Shown here: piece after piece, positions 2,218-64,000 of the stretch
How positions within the stretch are numbered: the stretch's first letter is position 1
Layout of the letters: every line of letters begins with the position of its first letter
Source of the DNA: Heloderma charlesbogerti
Taxonomy: Eukaryota; Chordata; Lepidosauria; Squamata; Helodermatidae
Assembly: GCA_026122225.1 (NCBI GenBank)
Contig: JANEZZ010002672.1
Coordinates: forward strand, 186,001-250,000
Reading direction: 5' to 3'
DNA length: 64,000 nucleotides
Translations under genes and position numbers: made by a program
Notes under the pieces: model-generated
Database searches by the model: none
What the model saw: the letters and a program-made list of their open reading frames with translations, nothing else
What the model was told of the DNA's origin: nothing

Positions 2218-3540
2218 ATCTCACATTAAATAATTTATGTGCCCCAAAGGGTCTTTTATTTCCTTTGCTTGGAATTATATTTTCTTTTAAAAAATAAAAT
2301 ATCCAGAGAGATTACTGCCACATTGTATCTATGCAATGTCAGGGATTACCATCTAAATCATACAGGGGTAACTGTGTTCCAATTGTCATGATCCATCATT
2401 CTAATGTTCAGTCCTACTGCATAATGGTATTGTAGGAGTAATCCAATAAAATAAGTAGGTTCTAGAACTAAAGCCAAGACATTGTGGCTTTTGAATCAGT
2501 GTAGGAATATTTATTGTACCCACGCCGAATGGCTTTGTGAGTTTGCCACCATTCAAACGCTACGCATAGTTAATCCAGAGGGAGGCATATAACTGTAATG
2601 GACTGACAAAGGGAAAGAGAATTGGTTAGGCAGGGAAAGAAAGAGAGGTGAAATTTCCAAGACAGCATAAAGAATGTACTAGAACAGAATAGAAATTTTA
2701 TTTGCATTAGCCACGAGCCGTTGCGAAATCGTACATCAAACACAACAAAACAGGTAGAATTATCAGATGAACGTTATTAAAATTATTTACACCAGCCACA
2801 GCAAACATGAAATATGCAATACTAAAGTCATGCAGCCAATATTTTGGTTAGTAAATTCCAATGCACACAACCCCCACCCCCCAGGCTGTTAATGAACTTC
2901 TCTCTCCTATGCCTCAATCCCCCATTCACGTTCTCAAGGTTGCCCACCTCCCTTTTACCTCAAACTCTCTCTCTCTGTCTCGTGCATTCCACCATCTGTC
3001 TTTCTTTTGCAGATGTGCATGGACCATCTCTTTTTCACCCCACCTCTCTCTGCCCATCGCTGGTTCTCTCCTCCCAGGCTCACACATGCACCATTGATGG
3101 TGAGGTTTCACCACCACAAGTGCAATGTAAAATGTTCTCAGTAGGAGACAGGAATCCCTTGCACAGGCCAATTCATACTGTGGCCATATGCATACAAAGT
3201 GGCTCTTCAGGTTAGCAAGTCATAAAATGCTGCAACATTTGTACAACAACAACATTTTTCTGAATGTGTTGTTGCTCTTGTTGTTGTTGTTGCTAATCGT
3301 GTTGTTGTCCTTGTTAATTGTGCCTTTTCATCATTGCTGTCCAAGGATTACTAATGAACAGTTCTCATTCAGCCTCTGTTCTCATGGGATTTTAAATATT
3401 CAAGTAGGGATATCTAAGAAAAAATGTGACGTCTGTAAGTTATGAATGGTTCCTATGTCCACATTTCTGGCAAGTTTCTCCTGAATGTGATTCCAATCCA
3501 TGTCAGATAGCAGATCTCCCTCCATTCCTCTGTCTGCATC
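2047..3540. other. Spacer with a (TG)n microsatellite and simple repeats
   Basis: Contains a (GT)n tract at about 2182-2210 followed by CGCGCAT, pyrimidine-rich DNA at 2900-3080 and (TTG)n near 3265-3310. The overlapping short frames at 2844-3215 lie in this pyrimidine-rich sequence and look fortuitous. Confidence 0.5.
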
Positions 3541-5604: not shown

Positions 5605-6432
5605 TAAGGATGGACGAAAGTCCCTTACCTGGTCCCACAGCTTTTTTCGGGGGGGGGAGGCGCTCCGTTTCTCCCCCCGAAATTCTTGGCAGGTGAGGAG
5701 GCGCCCCGCCCCTCCCCGCTGAAATTCTGGCTGGGGGGGAGGCGCCCCATCCCTCCCCGCCAAAATTCTGGCCGGGGGGGAGTGCCCCGTCTCCCCGGCC
5801 ACGAAAGAAAAAAAAAAAGTAAAAAAAAAAACGTGATAGGCTATGTAAAGATTTACGTAGCCTATCACGGCTAGATTTTCAAAGTCGGCTGTGATAGGCT
5901 ACGTAAACCTTTACGTAGCCTATCACGGCTGACTTTGAAAAAAAAAAGCGTGTACACAAATGGCGACGCCAATGGGCGCCGCTATTTGCGTTCCTTATTT
6001 GGGCACGGGTAGTCTATGTAAAGATTTACGTAGACTACGGCGAAAATAAGGGCAACATAAAGTATGCGCTTTTTTTTTTTTTTTCCAAAGTCAGCTGAGA
6101 TAGGCTACGTAAAGATTTACGTAGCCTATCACGGCTGACTTTGAAAATCTAGCCGTGATAGGCTACGTAAATCTTTACGTAGCCTATCACGTTTGTTTGT
6201 TTTGGTTTTTTTTTACTTTACTTGGAAATGGCGGCGGCGGCAGCCGGTCAGAAGACCGGCCGCTGCCGAACTACTGCTGGGACCCGCCGCCACGAGGGAC
6301 ATTCGCACGAGGTAAGTCCCATCCTGGGGGGGGACGGGGGGTGTCGGAGAATTTCCCCACCAATTTCGGGGGGCCGAATGCGTTGGCATTCGGCCTCCCA
6401 GAGATTTGTGGAGAAATTCTCCGACATCCCTA
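5605..6432. mobile_element. Palindrome-rich hAT-like element P1
   Basis: Ends TAAGGATG...CATCCCTA, with flanking 8-mers ACACAGAA (5597-5604) and ACAGAGAA (6433-6440), 7 of 8 identical. End B (GACGAAAGTCCCTTACCT) is on the left, end A (GAGAAATTCTCCGACATCCC) on the right. Between them lie palindromes of the type TGATAGGCTACGTAAA/TTTACGTAGCCTATCA (5834-5868, 5890-5926, 6099-6131, 6156-6190), a TAGTCTA...TAGACTA palindrome and a GC palindrome around AAATGGCG...CGCTATTTG. In end A an ATGGCGGCGGC stretch at 6228 is followed by GTAAGT at 6312. It encodes no transposase. Confidence 0.85.
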
Positions 6433-6459: not shown

Positions 6460-7280
6460 TAGGGAAGTACGAAAGTCACTTACCTTGAACCAAATTTGAT
6501 TTGCGGTGGGGGGGAGGCGCTCCGTCCCTCCACCCCCGAATCCTGGCCGGCCGGGCCGCAAATGGCAGCGGCCGTAGCCGCCGCCGTTTGCGTCCCTGCA
6601 GTCAGCTGTGATAGGCTACGTAAATGTTTACGTAGCCTATCACGGCTGAGTAAAACAAAAAACAAAAAAAAACACGCGTACGCAAATGGCGGCGCCCATG
6701 GGCGCCGCCATTTGCATTCCTTATTTTGGCACATCTAGTCTACGTAAACATTTACGTAGACTACGGCGAAAATAAGGGGAACACAAATAGCGTAGCGTCT
6801 ACGCTATTTGCGTTCCCCTTATTTTTGCTGTAGCCTACGTAAATGTTTACGTAGACTAGACATGCCAAAATAAGAAATGCAAATGGCGGCGCCCATGGGC
6901 GCCGGCATTTGCGTACGCGCGGGGGGGGGTTAGTTTTTTTTACTCAGCCGTGATAGGCTACGTTAACATTTACGTAGCCTATCATGGTATTTTTTAAAAA
7001 TCTAGCCGTGATAGGCTACGTAAATGTTTACGTAGCCTGCCTATCATGTTTTTTTTTGTTTTTGTTTTTTTTTACTGGAAATGGCGGCGGCAGCTGGTTG
7101 GAAGACCGGCTGCCGCTGCCGCCAAACCGCCGCCGGAGCCACCGCCGCCAGGAGGATTCGCCCAAGGTAAGTCCTGGGGTGGGGTGGGGGGGCAGACCGT
7201 TTCGTCACCAATTTCGGGGGGCCGAATGCGCTGGCATTCGGCCTCCCCGAGATTCGTGGCGAAATTCTCTGACATCCCTA
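6460..7280. mobile_element. Palindrome-rich hAT-like element P2
   Basis: Ends TAGGGAAG...CATCCCTA with a perfect 8-bp duplication GACACAGC (6452-6459 and 7281-7288). The orientation is the same as in P1. The core is symmetric: TAGGCTACGTAAATG/TTTACGTAGCCTATCA palindromes near 6609-6643, 6951-6985 and 7006-7045, GC palindromes built on AAATGGCGGCGCC near 6684-6715 and 6880-6915, and TAGTCTACGTAAACATTTACG near 6737-6764 and 6829-6860. The centre near 6800 is CAAATAGCGTAG-CGTCTACGCTATTTG. ATGGCGGCGG at 7081 precedes GTAAGT at 7167. Confidence 0.88.
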
Positions 7281-24467: not shown

Positions 24468-24953
24468 TAGGGCGAGCAATGCAGTTCAGGTGGAGCTGTT
24501 TTGGAGGGAGCTATCCTATGGCCACCAGACACTGTCTAGAGGGCTGTGAGATATGCTCTTTCCTGGGTACCGACCTCGGAGCCTGTGCTCCGAGGTCGTT
24601 TCCCGGAAAACTGATCTCCCCCCTCTTCTGCGCTGCTTTGGAGGCAGTGCAGAGAAATCCTCCATGCTCGTAAGAAGAGCATGGACCAACTGAAAATGGG
24701 CATGGCAGGCGGGCATTCTGGGGTGGGGAGAATGGAGCTGCGTGTATGACACATCCAATGTGTTATACAGCAGTTTCCTCTCCCAGTTGGGCCCCCTGCC
24801 ACTAGACAGATGAAAATGACTGTCTAGAGAAAAACAGCAAGGCAGGAGAGGTGCGGAGGGAATGATCCCCCCATGCCTCTCCTGCCTTGCTTTGGATAGG
24901 CGGTCGTCTCCAAGTTCGGAGGCGGCCGCCTATCTAGTTAGGATTGCGCCCTA
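24468..24953. mobile_element. MITE, family V copy 2
   Basis: Right end TTAGGATTGCGCCCT mirrors the AGGGTGCAATCCTA end of 14399-14820. GACACTGTCTAGAGG recurs near the left end, where the first bases (AGGGCGAGCAATGCAG) are diverged. GC-rich centre, non-coding. Confidence 0.5.
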
Positions 24954-27772: not shown

Positions 27773-28312
27773 TAGGGATGTCAGAGAATTCCTCCATGGA
27801 CCCCAATCTGGCCCCATTGGGGTCCATGGAGGAATGGAGCACTCACCTCCGTGCTCCTCTGGAATCCGTCCAGGTCGGATCCTCCATGTGGTGATCCTGC
27901 GGAGCTGGCCGCCAGCTCCGCAGCGCTGGTGATACGGCCGGCCACCATTGCCATGCCGTCTCGCTGTGCTAAGAAATTTGCATCCCTGTAAGGGACGCCA
28001 TTTGCATCCCCTTTTTTTCATGCAATAGGCTATGCAAATATCTACATAAATATAATTTGCATAACCTATCATGTGAAAACAGGGACGCAAATGGTGGAGT
28101 GGATGCCATCTGCAACTGGACTTAGCACAGCTATACGGCATGGCAATGGTGGCCGGCCATATCGCCAGCGCTGTGGAGCTGGCCACCGGCTCTGCAGGAT
28201 CATCATGTGGAGGAGCTGGCCTGGATGGACTCCAGGGGGAGGGAGGGATCGCTTCCCTGCCCCTGTGGACCCTCCCCCACCTGGAACGGGTTAAGTGATC
28301 CGCCCATCCCTA
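27773..28312. mobile_element. Palindrome-rich hAT-like element P3 (short, diverged)
   Basis: TAGGGATG...CATCCCTA with a perfect 8-bp duplication ACCTGTCT (27765-27772 and 28313-28320). End A on the left holds a hairpin (CATGGACCCCAATCTGGCCC / CCATTGGGGTCCATGG, 27797-27829). The core is a single symmetric unit: GCGGAGCTGGCCGCC..., a diverged TAGGCTATGCAAATA...TTTGCATAACCTATC palindrome near 28025-28072, then the mirror GCTGTGGAGCTGGCC. The TACGTA cores of other copies read ATGCAAAT here. Confidence 0.8.
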
Positions 28313-28614: not shown

Positions 28615-28667
28615 GCTGCTGAAATCACTAGGTGCCTCACCCCTAGGCACCTAGTGATTTCAGCAGC
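28615..28667. repeat. Perfect 23-bp stem, 7-bp loop
   Basis: GCTGCTGAAATCACTAGGTG and the next bases CCT (28615-28637) are exactly mirrored at 28645-28667 across the loop CACCCCT. Further direct copies of GCTGCTGAAATCACT lie at about 28683-28697 and a partial one near 28733. Confidence 0.8.
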
Positions 28668-28934
28668 AGTATGATGCCACGCTGCTGCTGAAATCACTCA
28701 GAGTCTCTCCTTCCAGAGACTTTCAGCTCCATGCTGAAATCACTGACATCGCTAAGCTAAGCTAACCTTGCTTGCCAGAGCAAGGTGCCAAGCCAACAGT
28801 GGGTGCTTTGCCTCCCCAGTCAAGGCTCTCCGCTTTCCTTCCTCTTCACCTGAGACCAGGAATTGCAACACACACTAGTTCCTGTCTGCAGGAAAGAGCT
28901 TCAGCCCAAGGAAAAGCATGCCCCTGGTCTGCAG

Positions 28935-29340
28935 CCACGAATGGCTGTCCCGGTCTGCGGCTGCCATTTCCCTCGCTACTTTAGCCATGATAGGCTACGT
29001 AAGTATTTACATAGCCTATCATGGCAAAAAGCAGGGATGCAAATAGGTTCTGCTATGCCATTTGCATCCCTGATCTTTTCGTGATAGGCTCCGTAAATAT
29101 ATATGTAGCCTATCACGGCTAACACAGGGACACAAATGGTGGCCACTACGGCAGCCGCCATTTGCGGCTGCAGCCCGGCAGTGGACGGAGGTCCGGCTGC
29201 AGGCGGCCCCAGCCGGAGGCTCCATGGAGTTGCCATGGAGCGGAGCAGGCCAGAGGGAATTTCGGGGGGAGGGACGGATCGCCTCCCCTCCACCACAGAT
29301 GCCCCAGACCGGAACAAGGTAAGGGATTCGTACATCCCTA
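28935..29340. mobile_element. Palindrome-rich hAT-like element P4 (left end missing)
   Basis: Right end B is complete (AAGGTAAGGGATTCGTACATCCCTA, ending 29340). TGATAGGCTACGTAAGT/TTTACATAGCCTATCA lies near 28988-29023 and TGATAGGCTCCGTAAAT/ATGTAGCCTATCA near 29081-29116. GC palindromes built on CCATTTGCG are near 29135-29168. No left TIR or duplication partner of GTGTGAAT was found, so the copy appears 5'-deleted. Confidence 0.65.
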
Positions 29341-34165: not shown

Positions 34166-35063
34166 TAGGGTTGGCGGAGAATTTCTCCCTGAAACTTCGG
34201 GGGGCCGAGTGCCAACGTGTTCGGCCCCCTGAACAAGTTTCGGGGAGAAATTCTCTGCACCCCCTGCCCCCCGCCCCCCCCGGGACAGGAAATACCTTTG
34301 GCGAATGTCCCTCCCGGCGGCGGGTCCGGCCGGCGGTTCAGCGGGTCTTCGTCAGGGGCGGGAGCAGCAGCCAGTCTTTCGACCGGCTGCCGCCGCCACC
34401 ATTCCAATCAAAGAAAAAAAAAATGCTCCCGTGATAGGCTACGTGACGATTAACGTAGCCTATCACGGCTAGATTTGCAAAGTCAGCCATGATAGGCTAC
34501 TGGCTACGTAAATCGTCACGTAGCCTATCACGGGTGACTTAAAAAAAAAAAAAAAGCGCGTACGGATAACGGCAGCCCCCATAGGGAGCCGCCATTCCCG
34601 TTCCTTATTTGGTCGCTGTAGTCTACGTAAATCTTTACGTAGACTACAGCGACCAAATAAGGAACGCGAATGGCGGCTCCCTATGGGGGCCGCCATTTGC
34701 GTACGTGCTTTTTTTTTTTTTTTTAAGTCACCCATGATAGGCTACGTGACGATTAACGTAGCCTATCACGGCTGTCTTTGCAGATCTAGCCGTGATAGGC
34801 TACGTTAATCGTCACGTAGCCTATCACGGGGGCGTTTTTTTTTTTTTTTTAAACCTTTTTAGTTCGCGGCCGGGCGAGGCGCCTCCTCCCCGGCCTGAAT
34901 TTTGGCCGGGCGAGGCGGGAAGCCTCCCCCCCGGCCTGAATTTCGGCCGGGCGAGGCGGGAAGCCTCCCCCCCCGGCCTGAACTTCACGAGGGGAGCAGC
35001 GAAGCGCCTCCCCCCCACCGCGAAAAGCTTCGAGGACAGGTAAGTGACTTTTGTCCATCCCTA
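34166..35063. mobile_element. Palindrome-rich hAT-like element P5
   Basis: TAGGGTTG...CATCCCTA with a perfect duplication AATTGAGC (34158-34165 and 35064-35071). End A is left, end B right. Palindromes: TGATAGGCTACGTGACGATT/AACGTAGCCTATCA (34432-34465), a second with an internal GGCTACTGGCTACG duplication (34490-34531), a TAGTCTACGTAAATC/TTTACGTAGACTA unit at about 34619-34647 near the centre, and mirror copies at 34735-34768 and 34792-34826. GC palindromes near 34574-34600 and 34668-34702. End B carries three ~45-bp tandem units of GGCCGGGCGAGGCGGGAAGC type. Confidence 0.88.
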
Positions 35064-41195: not shown

Positions 41196-42068
41196 AACTT
41201 ACAACCCAATCCTATACATGTTTACTCAGAAGTAAGTCCCATTGAGTTCAATAGCCTATTATGTATATAACGTATATATAACGTAGCCTATCATATGTAG
41301 CTATATAACGTAGCCTATCATGGCTGGGTAAAATAACAAAAACAAACCGCGTACGCAAATGGCGGCGGCTACAGCCGCCACCATTTGCGTTCCTTATTTT
41401 TGGCCGTCTTAGTCTACGTAAATATTTACATAGAATATGATGGCGAAAATAAGGGGAACGTAAATAGCATAGCAGGAGCTATTTGCATCCCTTTTTGATT
41501 CGCCATTTTAGCCTACGTAAATATTTAAAACGGCGAATCAAAAAGGGACGCAAATGGCACCTGCTACGCTATTTGCGTTCCCCTTTATTTTCGCCGTCAT
41601 AGTCTACGTAAATATTTATGTAGACTAAGACGGCCAAAAATAAGGAACGCAAATGGCGGCCGCCATAGCCACCGCCATTTGTGTACGCGTTTTGTTGTTG
41701 TTGTTGTTGTTTTACCCAGAGCCCTCCGTGGCCAGAAATCCGGCTGCGGACGGCTCTGGCCTGGGCCTGGCCGGCTGCTCCGTAGAGCCACCGCGGAGCA
41801 CAGCTGGCCATCGAGGATTCCAGGGGGGATGAACGGAGCGCCTCACCCCCCGTTGAGGATTCCAGGGGGAGGGACGGAACGCCTCCCCCCCACCATAAAC
41901 ATAATCAGCAGAAAGGTAAGTACATTTCGTAGATCCCTACTTACTCCCAAGTAAGTGTGCCGAGGTTGCAGACTTACAGGGTCATCTTATGTCTACCCAG
42001 AAGTAAGTCCCATTGAGTTCAATGCAGCTTACTTCCAAGTAAGTGTGCCCAGGATTGCAGACTTAAAC
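41196..42068 (+). repeat. AAGTAAGTCCCATTGAGTTC squamate-type repeat, split by P6
   Basis: ACCCAATCCTATACATGTTT, ACTCAGAAGTAAGTCCCATT, GAGTTCAAT (41204-41252) continues after the insertion with CTTACTCCCAAGTAAGTGTG (41940 onward). A second tandem copy of the repeat follows (41985-42065, ending CCCAGGATTGCAGAC). Similar scraps are at 24150, 49383 and within 51200-52390. Confidence 0.6.
41253..41939. mobile_element. Palindrome-rich hAT-like element P6 (left end lost)
   Basis: Right end B is intact (AGAAAGGTAAGTACATTTCG then TAGATCCCTA, ending 41939). The left TIR is absent; the element starts directly with TATATAACGTAGCCTATCA text. Core units: CGCAAATGGCGGCGGCTACAGCCGCCACCATTTGCG (about 41355-41390), TAGTCTACGTAAATATTTAC at two places (41410, 41600), a centre near 41500-41540 with TAGCCTACGTAAATATTT, and mirror copies to 41690. 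End B has GAGGATTCCAGGGGG duplicated (41812, 41866). Confidence 0.7.
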
Positions 42069-57713: not shown

Positions 57714-59714
57714 TTTATTTTTTTATTTTTATTATTAAATTTATTAATCGCCCATCTGGCTGGTCACCCAGCCACTCTGGGCGATGTACAACATACAATA
57801 AAACAGTTTAAAACAATAAAATTCTACCATAAAAACATTTTCTAAAATACTCTAACCCACCCCAAATGCCTGCCTGAACAACCATGTTTTTAATGCATGG
57901 CGGAAGCTCATTAAACAGGGGGCATGAGTTCTCTAGGGAGGGAGTTCCACAGAGTGGGGGCCACCACAGAAAAGGCCCTCTCCCTCGTCCCCACCAGTCT
58001 AGCTGTCCTGGCTGATAGGACAGAGAGAAGGCCATCCGAGGCTGATCTTGTTAAGCGGCCTGTCTGGTGCTGCTGGAGACGCTCCTTAAGATAGGCTGGG
58101 CTGGAACCATATAGGATTTTAAAGGTCAAAACCAACACCTTGAATTTGGCCCAGAAAACAACTGGTAACCAGTGCAACTCCTTCAGCACTGGAGTGATGT
58201 GATCTCGCTGGCGGCTGCCTTTAATCAGGCGAGCCGCCGCGTTCTGTACCAGCTGCAGTTTCCGAACCGTCTTCAAGGGTAACCCCACGTAGAGCGCATT
58301 ACAGTAGTCTAAACGAGAGGAGACCAGGGCATGTACTACCGATGGGAGCAGATGGTCGGGAAGGAAGGGGCGCAGCCGCCGTATCAGATGGAGTTGAAAC
58401 AGCGCTGTCCGGCTCACAGCTGACACCTGAGACTCCATGGACAGCTGGGAGTCCAAAATGACCCCCAGGCTGCAGACCTGGTCTTTCAAGGGTAGCCGTA
58501 CCCCATTCAACAACAGGTCAGCATCCCCTAGCCTCCTCTTGTCTCCCACCAAAAGTACCTCGGTCTTGTCAGGGTTCAGCTTCAGCTTATTCCTCCCCAT
58601 CCAGCCACTCACCGTCTCCAGACATTTGGACAGGGATTCTACAGCCAACCTTGGTGAAGATTCGAATGAGAGGTAGAGCTGCGTGTCATCCGCATATTGA
58701 TGACACTGCACCCCAAACCTCCTGATGATAGCCCCCAGCAGCTTCACATAGATGTTAAATAGCATCGGGGAGAGGATGGAACCCTGTGGCACCCCACAAG
58801 TAAGTGGCCACGGGTCCGAAACCTTCTCTCCCAGTGCTACCCTCTGGTACCTGCCGGAGAGGAAGGACCGGAACCACTGCAATACGGTGTCTCCAATGCC
58901 CAACCCCTCCATGCGGTCCAGGAGGATACCGTGGTCAACGGTATCAAAAGCCACTGAGAGGTCGAGGAGAACAAGGAAGGAGCATTCACCCCTATCCAGA
59001 GCCCTCCTCATATCATCTACCAAGGCGACCAAGGCCGTTTCTGTCCCATGCCCAAGCCTGAAGCCCGACTGAAATGGGTCTAGATAATCAGTTTCTTCCA
59101 AGTGTGCCTTCAACTGCACCGCCACCACCCGCTCAATCACCTTGCCCAAAAATGGCAGATTTGAGACTGGGCAAAAGTTGTTCAGAACTTGAGGATCCAA
59201 GGAGGGCTTCTTTAAGAGCAGTCTTATCACTGCCTCCTTGAGGGCTGATGGCATCACTCCCTCCTCAAGGGAGGCATTCACCACCGCCCTGATCCCCTCA
59301 CCCAGTCTCTCTCTGCAGCCCATAATGAGCCAAGATGGGCAAGGATCAAGTAAGCAGGTGGTCGGCCATACAGATGAAAGCACCTTGTCCACTTCATCAG
59401 GAGGAAGAAGCTGGAACCGATTCCACAAAACCGGTTTGCCACAGGCCGCCTCTTGCTCACTAACTGTATCCATGGAGTGCAGAGTAACACACCTAATCTG
59501 ATCAATTTTATCTGCAAAGTGCCTTGCCAAGGCCTCACAGGAGGCCTTAGAATGCTCCAGTGGTTCCGGAGCCACAGGACCGACCAGACTCCGGACCACT
59601 TGGAACAGCCTCCTGGGACAGCACTCTGCAGATGCGATAGAGGCAGCATAATATTCCTTTTTTGCTGCCTTCACCGCCACGTGATAGGCTGAAGATACAG
59701 CTCTAGCCTGTGTC
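57714..59714 (-). mobile_element. L3/CR1-type LINE inserted in Bov-B, 5'-truncated
   Basis: The minus-strand element of 2.0 kb interrupts the Bov-B text ...GACTGTAGCCA / TAGCCATGAAATTAAAAGAC. TAGCCA is present on both sides (57708-57713 and 59715-59720). Its 3' end (left) is TTTATTTTTTTATTTTTATTATTAAATTTATTAATCGCCC in antisense, preceded by the GCGATGTACAA 3' UTR shared with 5185-5436 and 16351-16845. It keeps the reverse transcriptase but lacks the endonuclease, so it is a dead-on-arrival copy that is nevertheless young. Confidence 0.9.
57911..59680 (-). CDS. L3/CR1-type LINE reverse transcriptase frame, 589 residues, open
   Basis: The antisense frame is open for 589 codons and encodes the reverse transcriptase and C-terminal part of a CR1-superfamily ORF2 (non-LTR retrotransposon; it would copy its own RNA at a nicked target in the nucleus). 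Visible landmarks: NFCPVSNLPFLGKVIERVVA near residue 180, SGFRLGHGTETALVALVDD near 215, LLDLSVAFDTVDHGILL near 245 (first catalytic Asp), GVPQGSILSPMLFN near 300, HQYADDTQLYLSF near 335 (intact YADD), then LKLNPDKTEVLLVG and the tail LHWLPVVFWAKFKVLVLTF and TLWNSLPREL. The start codon used here is only the first Met; full-length ORF2 is about 900-1000 residues, so the N-terminal endonuclease is missing by 5' truncation. The catalytic residues are unbroken, unlike in the surrounding Bov-B. Expression would need a chance promoter; the likely status is a recent inert copy. Confidence 0.9.
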   Translation of the reverse strand: MAVKAAKKEYYAASIASAECCPRRLFQVVRSLVGPVAPEPLEHSKASCEALARHFADKIDQIRCVTLHSMDTVSEQEAACGKPVLWNRFQLLPPDEVDKVLSSVWPTTCLLDPCPSWLIMGCRERLGEGIRAVVNASLEEGVMPSALKEAVIRLLLKKPSLDPQVLNNFCPVSNLPFLGKVIERVVAVQLKAHLEETDYLDPFQSGFRLGHGTETALVALVDDMRRALDRGECSFLVLLDLSVAFDTVDHGILLDRMEGLGIGDTVLQWFRSFLSGRYQRVALGEKVSDPWPLTCGVPQGSILSPMLFNIYVKLLGAIIRRFGVQCHQYADDTQLYLSFESSPRLAVESLSKCLETVSGWMGRNKLKLNPDKTEVLLVGDKRRLGDADLLLNGVRLPLKDQVCSLGVILDSQLSMESQVSAVSRTALFQLHLIRRLRPFLPDHLLPSVVHALVSSRLDYCNALYVGLPLKTVRKLQLVQNAAARLIKGSRQRDHITPVLKELHWLPVVFWAKFKVLVLTFKILYGSSPAYLKERLQQHQTGRLTRSASDGLLSVLSARTARLVGTRERAFSVVAPTLWNSLPRELMPPV

Positions 59715-60460: not shown

Positions 60461-61718
60461 GTTCCTCCTGCTCAAGGACCGGTTCATTGCTGACCCCTAG
60501 AGGGACACCGCTTTCGCTGGCATTTTCATGGCAGACTATAGCGGGGTGGTTTGCCATTGCCTTCCCCAGTCATGACTACCTTTCCCCCAGCAAGCTGGGT
60601 CCTCATTTTACCGACCTCGGAAGGATGGAGGGCTGAGTTGACCTGAGCCTAGGGATGTACGAAAGTCACTTACCTTTTTGCAGCTTGGCTTCGCGGTGGG
60701 GGGGAGGCGCTTCGCTTCTCTCCCCGAAGTTCAGGCGAGGGGGGGGAGGCATCCCGCCTCGCCCGGTCGAAATTCAGGCCGGGGGGGGGAGGCTTCCCGC
60801 CTCGCCCAGCCAAAATTCAGGCTGGGGAGAAGCGCCCCGTCTCCCCAGCCGCGAAACAAAAAGTAAAAAAAAAGACCCCGTGATAGGCTACGTGACGATT
60901 TACGTAGCCTATCACGGCTAGATTTGCAAAGTCAGCTGTGATAGGCTACGTAAATCGTCACATAGCCTATCACAGGTGACTTGGCAGGAAAAAAAGCGCG
61001 TACGCAAATGGCGGCGCCCATGGGGCGCCGCCATTTGCGTTCCTTATTTTGGCACGTTTAGTCTATGTAAAGATTTACGTAGACTACAGCAAAAATAAGG
61101 GCAACGCAAATAGTGTGCCCTTATTTTCGCCGTAGTCTATGTAAATCTTTACGTAGACTAGACGTGCCAAAATAAGGAACGCAAATGGCGGCGCCCCATG
61201 GGCACCGCCATTTGCGTACGCGCTTTTTTTTTTTCTTTCAAAGTCACCCGTGATAGGCTACGTGACGATTTACGTAGTCTATCATGGCTGACTTTGGAAA
61301 TCTAGCCGTGATAGGCTACGTAAATCATTACGTAGCCTGTCAGAGGTGTTTGTTTTTTTTTCCTTTAGTTTTTTTTTTTTGCAATGGCGGCAGCAGCAGC
61401 CAGTCGGGAGACTGGCCGCCGCCCCCGCCTGCGACAAAACGCTGCCGAACCGCCACCGGGACCCGCCGCCGAGAGGGACATTCGCCGAAGGTAAGTCCCG
61501 TCCCGGGGAGGGCGGGGGGCCGGTGGAGAATTTCCCAACCAACTTCGGGGGGCCGAATGCGTCGGCGCTCGGCCTCCCGAAGATTCGGGGAGAAATTCTC
61601 CGCCATCCCTACCTGAGCTGGCAACCCGAGACCCAGCTTCCGCTGGGATCGAACTCAGGTCATGGGGAGAGTTTCGGTTGCAATACTGCCGCCTACCACT
61701 CTGCGCCACACAAGGAGT
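60461..61718 (-). mobile_element. tRNA-derived SINE, antisense, split by P8
   Basis: The body at 60461-60649 and the head at 61612-61718 join to one SINE. Minus strand head: TGTGGCGCAGAGTGGTAGGC (A-box-like), CATGACCTGAGTTCGATCCC (B box GTTCGATCC), CTGGGTCTCGGGTTGCCAGC. Body: ACTCAGCCCTCCATCCTTCC, GAGGTCGGTAAAATGAGGAC, GACTGGGGAAGGCAATGGCA, AACCACCCCGCTATAGTCTG. The sequence type is familiar from squamate genomes. Confidence 0.8.
60650..61611. mobile_element. Palindrome-rich hAT-like element P8 (best complete copy)
   Basis: TAGGGATG...CATCCCTA, duplication CCTGAGCC / CCTGAGCT (60642-60649, 61612-61619), 7 of 8. End B left, end A right. The core is symmetric about position 61111: palindromes S 60881-60914, S 60937-60974, G 61002-61040 (CGCAAATGGCGGCGCCCA mirrored), T 61059-61086, centre, T 61133-61160, G 61180-61216, S 61251-61284, S 61309-61342. 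End B contains three ~45-bp units (AATTCAGGC...GGCTTCCCGCCTCGCCC). End A contains ATGGCGGCAGC (61384) and GTAAGTCCCG (61491), then a hairpin TTCGGGGGGCCGAATGCG / CGCTCGGCCTCCCGAA. No transposase. Confidence 0.93.
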
Positions 61719-63743: not shown

Positions 63744-64000
63744 TAGGGATGTCAGAGAATTTCTCCACGAATCTCCAGGATGCCGAACGCCAACGCATTC
63801 GGCCCCCCGAAATTGGTGGAGAAACGGTCCGCCCCCCCCCCCCCGGGATGGGACTTACCTTGGTCAAATGTCCCTGGCGGTGGCGGCTCCTGCCGGCGGT
63901 GGCAGCCGGTCTTCCGACTGGCTCCCGCCGCCGTCATTTCCAGGTAAAAAAACAACAACAACAACAAACGTGATAGGCTACGTAAAGATTTACGTAGCCT
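63744..64000. mobile_element. Palindrome-rich hAT-like element P9, cut by the window edge
   Basis: TAGGGATGTCAGAGAATTTC (end A), the AACGCCAACGCATTCGGCCC hairpin, GGGACTTACCTTGG (donor-like on the minus strand), then TGATAGGCTACGTAAAGATT and TACGTAGCCT at the edge. The rest lies beyond 64000. Confidence 0.85.

Follow-up and report, generated by a model that had tools for sequence, protein, structure and literature searches.

A high-copy hAT MITE in Heloderma whose core of nested palindromes may multiply transposase docking sites

P8, a 962-bp element in a 64,000-nucleotide stretch of Heloderma charlesbogerti DNA (the window, from whose first letter all positions are counted), is a non-autonomous member of the hAT superfamily, and this assignment is much firmer than the role we propose for the small palindromes, or modules, that make up its core. 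P8 is a MITE: it is short, is without a transposase gene, and belongs to a high-copy family of uniform structure. hAT MITEs are a known kind of element, and the new part, by comparison with the open-access literature, is the unusual core together with a testable explanation for it. The explanation we favor, which we consider probable as a whole if with modest confidence, is that this gene-less element multiplies in its core pairs of half-sites of the type carried by a larger partner and that fold-back duplicated the core; transposase binding, the benefit to amplification, and the copying mechanism are what we infer from the comparisons below.

Results

Architecture of P8 and its relatives in the window

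The ends, module lengths, S-S-G-T-centre-T-G-S-S order, and symmetry that the initial annotation had described for P8 were all confirmed. The core measures 466 bp (60878–61343) and contains near-perfect palindromes in that order, enclosed in an inner pair of big inverted arms that are 95% identical over 115 nt (60989–61103/61116–61230) and an outer pair that are 86% identical over 131 nt (60865–60995/61228–61358). The big arms (60865–61103, 61116–61358) are internal and stop short of the termini, which sets P8 apart from Foldback elements, whose long inverted repeats extend to the termini, and the two ends of P8 agree with each other over only ∼8 to 10 bp. When palindromes with 16-bp arms were sought, allowing up to two mismatches, 45 merged places were found in the window, 33 within the nine P copies and 12 outside; three first-order Markov simulations of the window gave 0 at the same threshold. 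P8 itself accounts for 6 of these places; its T modules have shorter arms. Strong palindromes outside the P copies include those at 24565–24604, 24895–24934, and 28622–28695. A simple scan for dyad centres overlooked many modules, and its results were set aside.

Two kinds of module can be distinguished. B modules (S and T) share TAGnCTACGTAAA...TTTACGTAGnCTA, and A modules (G and the centre) share ACGCAAATrGC...GCyATTTGCGT; ACGYAAA is present in the half-sites of both and occurs 13 times in a 38-copy consensus. In that consensus, 226 of the 238 left-half positions pair with the right half. Alternating small palindromes with mirrored linkers give a symmetric series of themselves, and no separate origin has to be assumed for the big palindrome. 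The P8-type big palindrome is nevertheless a true inverted duplication: S3 and G2 repeat, in mirror image, small irregularities of S2 and G1.

All nine copies that had been reported in the window were located (Table 1), but P3 proved to belong to a different, related family. Its end, TAGGGATGTCAGAGAATTCC, resembles the 5′ end of the partner described below, its internal arms are 85% identical, and by eye it holds relics of A and B modules. A right end was looked for in P6 and not found; P6 also alternates A and B modules if a decayed B between two central A modules, recognized by eye, is counted. Outside these copies, the minus strand at 57911–59713 carries a 600-aa open frame that by eye is LINE reverse transcriptase-like.

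Table 1. Features of P8 and its relatives in the window (TSD, target site duplication).
Feature	Position	Strand	TSD or basis
P1, S-S-G-T-S-S, centre and one half lost	5605..6432	+	TSD 7/8
P2, G-S-G-T-C-T-G-S-S, intact centre	6460..7280	+	TSD GACACAGC 8/8
P3, related MITE family, 118-nt arms	27773..28312	+	TSD ACCTGTCT 8/8
P4, diverged alternating G-S-G-S-G array, far end undefined	about 28880..29340	-	
P5, single T at centre	34166..35063	-	TSD GCTCAATT 8/8
P6, diverged, with an array of A and B modules	41308..41939	-	
P7, architecture as in P8	52578..53538	-	TSD GCCAAAAC 8/8
P8, non-autonomous hAT element (MITE), 962 bp	60650..61611	+	ends TAGGGATG/CATCCCTA
P8 left target duplication CCTGAGCC	60642..60649	+	flanking sequence
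P8 left end, 25 bp, with AAGTCACTT and outward GGTAAG	60650..60674	+	21,440 exact genome copies
P8 GC-rich 43-bp tandem repeat between left end and core	60724..60822	+	
S1 palindrome module, B-type half-sites TAGGCTACGT	60878..60917		palindrome scan
S2 palindrome module	60936..60975		palindrome scan
G1 palindrome module, A-type half-sites ACGCAAATGGCGGC	61002..61040		inverted repeats and palindrome scan
T1 palindrome module, B-type	61059..61086		inverted repeats
P8 centre, A-type module remnant ACGCAAATAG, complete palindrome in P2	61101..61119		
T2 palindrome module	61133..61160		inverted repeats
G2 palindrome module, mirrors G1 in lineage consensus	61179..61217		
S3 palindrome module, mirrors S2 in consensus	61248..61287		
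S4 palindrome module, mirrors S1 in consensus with 1 difference	61308..61343		
P8 CpG-rich stretch ATGGCGGC...AAGGTAAGT, first-exon-like, frame unconserved among copies	61384..61496	+	
P8 right end, an inverted repeat in its own right	61512..61611	+	
P8 right target duplication CCTGAGCT	61612..61619	+	flanking sequence, 7/8 match
P9, cut by window edge	63744..64000	-	

P8 belongs to a mobile hAT family of very high copy number

Terminal inverted repeats of hAT elements start with (T/C)AGNG, and TAGGGATG at both ends of P8 fits this start. The 8-bp duplications noticed in the window were verified as perfect in P2, P5, and P7 and as matching at 7/8 positions in P1 and P8. Among 39 copies fetched from the genome, they match at 8/8 positions in 25, at 7/8 in 9, and at 0 to 3 of 8 in the remaining 5, one of which is without a left end; with L024/L025 and L027/L028 being duplicated places, the first two counts become 24 and 8 of 37 distinct copies. 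hAT elements have a weak nTnnnnAn target preference, and the composition of the duplications fits it weakly, with T at position 2 in 18 of 37 and A at position 7 in 21 of 37 (32 fetched copies and five window copies).

Empty sites were also found. There are ten places, one of them represented by a duplicated pair of loci, at which a copy of the partner element is interrupted by a segment that has MITE-like ends and that relatives of that copy do not have. The commonest overlap between the flanks in the relatives is exactly 8 bp at four of the places (one each in L056, L057, L081, and L072/L073), 9 to 12 bp at five, and 17 bp in L080. The segment inserted in L057 has the duplication GCAGTGGA. 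The hAT-like identity first assigned to P8 thus holds on its ends, its 8-bp duplications, and the empty sites.

The genome searched comprises 2.30 Gb (2,302 Mb) in 3,246 contigs. The P8 left-end 25-mer occurs in it 21,440 times exactly, versus 0 times for the reversed pattern, which bears out the very high copy number supposed from the window; yet exact left ends are ∼3.4-fold denser in the window (2 in 64 kb) than in the genome on average (21,440 in 2,302 Mb). Among left ends that were not selected for exactness, two of seven are exact in the window and 2/13 in the flanks of hAT loci (up to six mismatches allowed; L072 and L073 are one duplicated place). Extrapolating from the exact-end count and the exact fraction, the family has very roughly 10^5 copies. 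No P8-family copy was present in six 6-kb stretches sampled at round coordinates on six long contigs.

A search of the genome with P8 returned 13,005 first-look candidates, of which 40 were scored; the 39 copies fetched are the best matches to P8 and not a random sample. A module caller found SS-(G/C)-TT-(G/C)-SS in 37 of these 39; the symmetry is not limited to this locus. One S pattern gave no match in viral contigs, and no description of the family was found in the open-access literature at the level of listings and abstract beginnings.

A ∼9.4-kb hAT element is the likely partner

The initial annotation had suggested looking for a full-length hAT relative with the same ends, and we can propose a candidate that shares one end over 20 to 22 bp at 86 to 95%; its other end agrees over ∼10 bp, and no whole module was found in it. 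A PF05699 profile search of the genome gave 871 candidates, 150 of which were scored, and the 30 hAT loci read all fall into a single family. Two copies joined into a composite give a length of 9,369 bp. The partner has an 879-codon open frame encoding zf-BED and Dimer_Tnp_hAT domains, the product of which resembles the Hermes transposase. Among the best 7,990 candidates scored, the five best relatives of this protein are lizard and gecko proteins from Sceloporus, Phrynocephalus, Paroedura, Eublepharis, and Sphaerodactylus (36–42% identity), which points to a squamate host. Three of its relatives, the predicted lizard or gecko proteins P0002, P0004, and P0005, have domains joined to a like hAT transposase that we take, from their Pfam accessions, to be SCAN or KRAB.

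The ends of the partner were defined as the points where copies cease to match. At the 3′ boundary, with the differing 3′ flank of L057 set aside, two copies stop matching exactly at AATTCATACATCCCTA; at the 5′ boundary, matching starts 10 bp inside TAGGGATGTCAGAGAAATTC, where the second copy has an expanded repeat. The partner 5′ end is expanded near 3400–3465 of L085 (C1725) as a tandem array of GAAAGTGAAATGGGCTC units, beyond which no 5′ terminus was found in L085, and the copy on C235 ends before its own 3′ end, so that it yielded no target duplication for the partner. We had also considered CATCCCTA, ∼330 nt past the hAT domain, as the end of the partner and rejected it as internal, since 25/30 loci continue from there into like flank. 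The exact 5′ end occurs 80 times, and 42 of these occurrences sit 3.3 to 8.6 kb upstream of one of the 150 PF05699 matches in the same orientation, versus 1 in a control with strands flipped. The exact 3′ end occurs 22 times, in 5 cases within 10 kb downstream of a domain match.

The first 20 to 22 bp of the partner 5′ end match the MITE right end at 95% in P2 (20 bp), 91% in P1, and 86% in P8 (22 bp); these matches are short, with E values of 0.002 for P1, 0.002 for P2, and 0.09 for P8. By eye, the agreement between the partner 3′ end and the MITE left end covers the first 10 bp and a few further positions. With one end matched over 20 to 22 bp and the other over ∼10 bp, this element is likely, though not proven, to be the partner of the P8 family or a close relative of one. 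Four other hAT loci gave no match to the MITE ends at five to six mismatches; the bare 8-mer YAGGGATG is present in L093 and L094, which are other hAT loci.

Core motifs cluster at the ends of the partner

We found no whole module in the partner when allowing up to two mismatches per half-site. In the copies read, TACGTA is confined to the 3′ subterminal region. Looser matches to CTACGTAAA lie near both ends and in a few internal places, and ACGTAAA occurs three times in the last 450 bp, not at all in the first 450, and once in the 8,469 internal bp. For a motif-neutral test, we used the 37 7-mers that are each present four or more times in the core of the MITE. These gave 19 matches in the terminal 900 bp versus 30 in the 8,469 internal bp; reversed, they gave 0 matches in the termini and 27 in all, and letter-shuffled versions reached at most 10 terminal matches in 200 trials. 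Because the partner termini are CpG-rich, we also shuffled them while keeping their dinucleotides, and none of 1000 shuffles reached 19 matches. Sets of 8-mers and 6-mers behaved alike. The cluster is clear at the 3′ end (14 matches, reached by 0/1000 shuffles) and marginal at the 5′ end (5 matches, reached by 43/1000); internal 450-bp stretches have 0 to 7 matches, with 7 in one stretch.

The CpG observed/expected ratio in the terminal 450 bp of the partner is 0.94 and 1.16 (L084 and L083), against 0.35 inside it, and the MITE consensus reaches 1.39 versus 0.35 for the window. Source elements seem to avoid decay through methylation.

The S and T modules are constrained in source elements

Variants were compared in an alignment of 38 copies, consisting of P7, P8, and 36 of the 39 fetched copies (L025, L028, and L041 were dropped). 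A variant seen in one copy was counted as having arisen after insertion and a variant in at least two copies as coming from a source element; CpG sites, runs of at least four together with the adjacent positions, and columns having over three gaps were left out, and the centre remnant was counted apart from S/T. Shared variants occupy 4 of 160 S/T sites, compared with 11/100 in the core linkers (P 0.006) and 62/365 in all other classes together (P 5e-7). The other classes have 7/44 in G, which is not depleted, 0/10 in the centre, 8/59 in the exon-like stretch, 13/59 in the right end, 12/59 in the left GC-rich part, 4/22 in the left end, and 7/12 in the short stretch 3′ of the core. Singletons are not rare in S/T (51/160 sites, versus 39/100 in linkers), and so the S and T modules were nearly constant in the source elements and decayed freely afterward. 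We conclude that there is source-level constraint on S/T and not on G.

The two halves of the big palindrome change together

It had been proposed that the palindromes arise by repeated fold-back synthesis and that their halves might co-vary; this was so for the big arms and not for the small ones. Compensatory changes between the arms of the small palindromes numbered 25 versus 22.3 in shuffles when all pairs were counted and 0 versus 0.57 at non-CpG sites. Between the big arms, there were 28 non-CpG compensatory changes versus 14.0, a number reached by 0/1000 shuffles. One G column pair contributes 15 of the 28; without it, the count is 13 versus 6.9 (2/1000), and leaving out also the A-rich linker, where the alignment is unsure, 4 versus 0.7 (1/1000). 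Relatedness among copies can by itself raise the counts above those of shuffles, and the main evidence is therefore the mirrored G pattern itself. G1 is of the type GGCGCCCATGGGGCGCC in 18 of 38 copies and GGCGGCCCATGGGCGCC in 15, and in both lineages G2 is the reverse complement of G1 except for private changes here and there; the displayed parts of S and the centre do not differ between the two. Five copies match neither type, and L042 looks recombinant. This pattern, which supports the fold-back origin in part, provides good evidence for copying of one arm onto the other within a source element.

These observations would also suit palindromes that are mere by-products of fold-back synthesis or template switching, a process that makes and perfects inverted duplications and would leave the modules functionless. 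G modules that change together as mirror images between source lineages and co-varying big arms are what such a process predicts, and so are the states of the central module, which is complete in P2, partly lost in P8, and missing more in P1 and P5, as expected of hairpin deletions; further inverted or tandem repeats occur elsewhere in the element. Left unexplained, however, are the shortage of shared variants in S/T relative to linkers of the same palindrome and the presence of the same motifs at the partner ends, and we regard this explanation as unlikely.

Promoter and hairpin functions

Less probable still is that the core serves as a portable, bidirectional germline promoter: a CpG island that carries sites for host factors and sends transcripts outward through splice donors near both ends. 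The CpG enrichment of the consensus would fit, as would the donor-like sequences that point outward, CTTACC at the left end in 31/36 copies and GGTAAGT at the right end in 33/36, and AAATGGCGGC resembles what we take to be a YY1 site. However, the frame from ATGGCGGC to GGTAAGT is not conserved, with the pair out of place in 16/36 copies and stops in 8 of the other 20; the partner termini are CpG-rich too, and the clear motif cluster of the partner lies at the 3′ end, which has no need of a promoter. We rejected ATGGCGGC...GGTAAGT as a coding first exon on the same lack of frame conservation. The strong splice-donor-like sequences AGGTAAGT point outward at 60668–60675 and 61488–61496 in P8, and inserted copies might splice into neighbouring transcripts through such sequences.

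Among the functions initially suggested as reasons for retaining the palindromes, transposase binding agrees in part with the data, but retention as RNA or DNA hairpins (small-RNA precursors or cruciforms) is very improbable: although the P8 DNA strand has an extremely stable fold (−239.8 kcal/mol versus −62.7, SD 4.5, for 100 shuffles; z −39) and the module series could form one long or many short hairpins, compensatory change within modules does not exceed shuffles, there is no Rfam match at gathering thresholds, and the constraint on S/T is on sequence, beyond pairing.

Discussion

In the explanation we favor, the P8 family would be mobilized by the transposase of the ∼9.4-kb hAT element in the same genome or of a close relative. 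Its core would consist of inverted pairs of two half-sites, TAGnCTACGTAAA and ACGCAAATGGCGGC, each containing ACGYAAA and each of a type that occurs singly in the subterminal regions of the partner. Each small palindrome could then be occupied by a pair of BED zinc fingers from the transposase, as in the Hermes quasi-palindrome, and the core as a whole would offer many docking sites. Fold-back, or inverted, copying of one half onto the other may have made the big palindrome and may keep it symmetric between source elements, and the multiplied double sites would be kept by selection for being copied. A stronger form seems doubtful to us, namely that the family reached ∼10^5 copies by means of a core acting as a super-recruiter, with many cooperative BED-finger palindromes built from the single half-sites of the partner and with halves that copy-edit each other by fold-back so that the sites stay matched.

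Why some MITEs vastly outnumber the elements that mobilize them is a long-standing question. With a likely partner that has open transposase frames, many copies, a defined module, and the contrast between S/T and linkers, the idea that docking sites are multiplied becomes directly testable. The mirrored G modules are a clear record of palindrome halves evolving together at the source level.

Several known systems share parts of this arrangement. Galileo, of the P superfamily, has long inverted arms, internal repeats, and arms that change structure, as P8 does, but it has a THAP transposase and terminal inverted repeats, whereas the big arms of P8 are internal (PMC4168063). Bacterial REP/BIME sequences resemble the P8 layout in being transposase-linked small palindromes in alternating orientation; they involve another enzyme class, and the likeness is an analogy of layout only (PMC2817692). 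The transposase of Herves and, as cited in the same paper, those of Ac, Tol2, and Tag1 bind short subterminal motifs, as we propose here; the motifs are others, and the parts of the paper covered describe neither a palindromic array nor a derived high-copy MITE (PMC3143072).

Hermes is the closest model. Its BED domains recognize AAG(T/C) repeats, and two of them bind a quasi-palindrome near the left end, STR1-STR2, cooperatively (PMC10368747). The likeness lies in a BED-domain transposase and in short repeats concentrated near the ends, with two in a palindromic arrangement that in Hermes is bound cooperatively; unlike Hermes, which has one end-proximal palindrome and one far in the interior, P8 has a core of eight palindromic modules and a centre remnant (PMC10368747). 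The interior Hermes repeats beyond 50 bp are reported as not needed, ∼70% of activity being left after mutation (PMC10368747), a result that counts against reasoning from binding to benefit in the explanation we favor. At the MITE left end, AAGTCACTT at bp 14 to 22 resembles the AAGT/AAGC pair at bp 11 to 27 of Hermes (PMC10368747), and it is exact in 28/36 copies.
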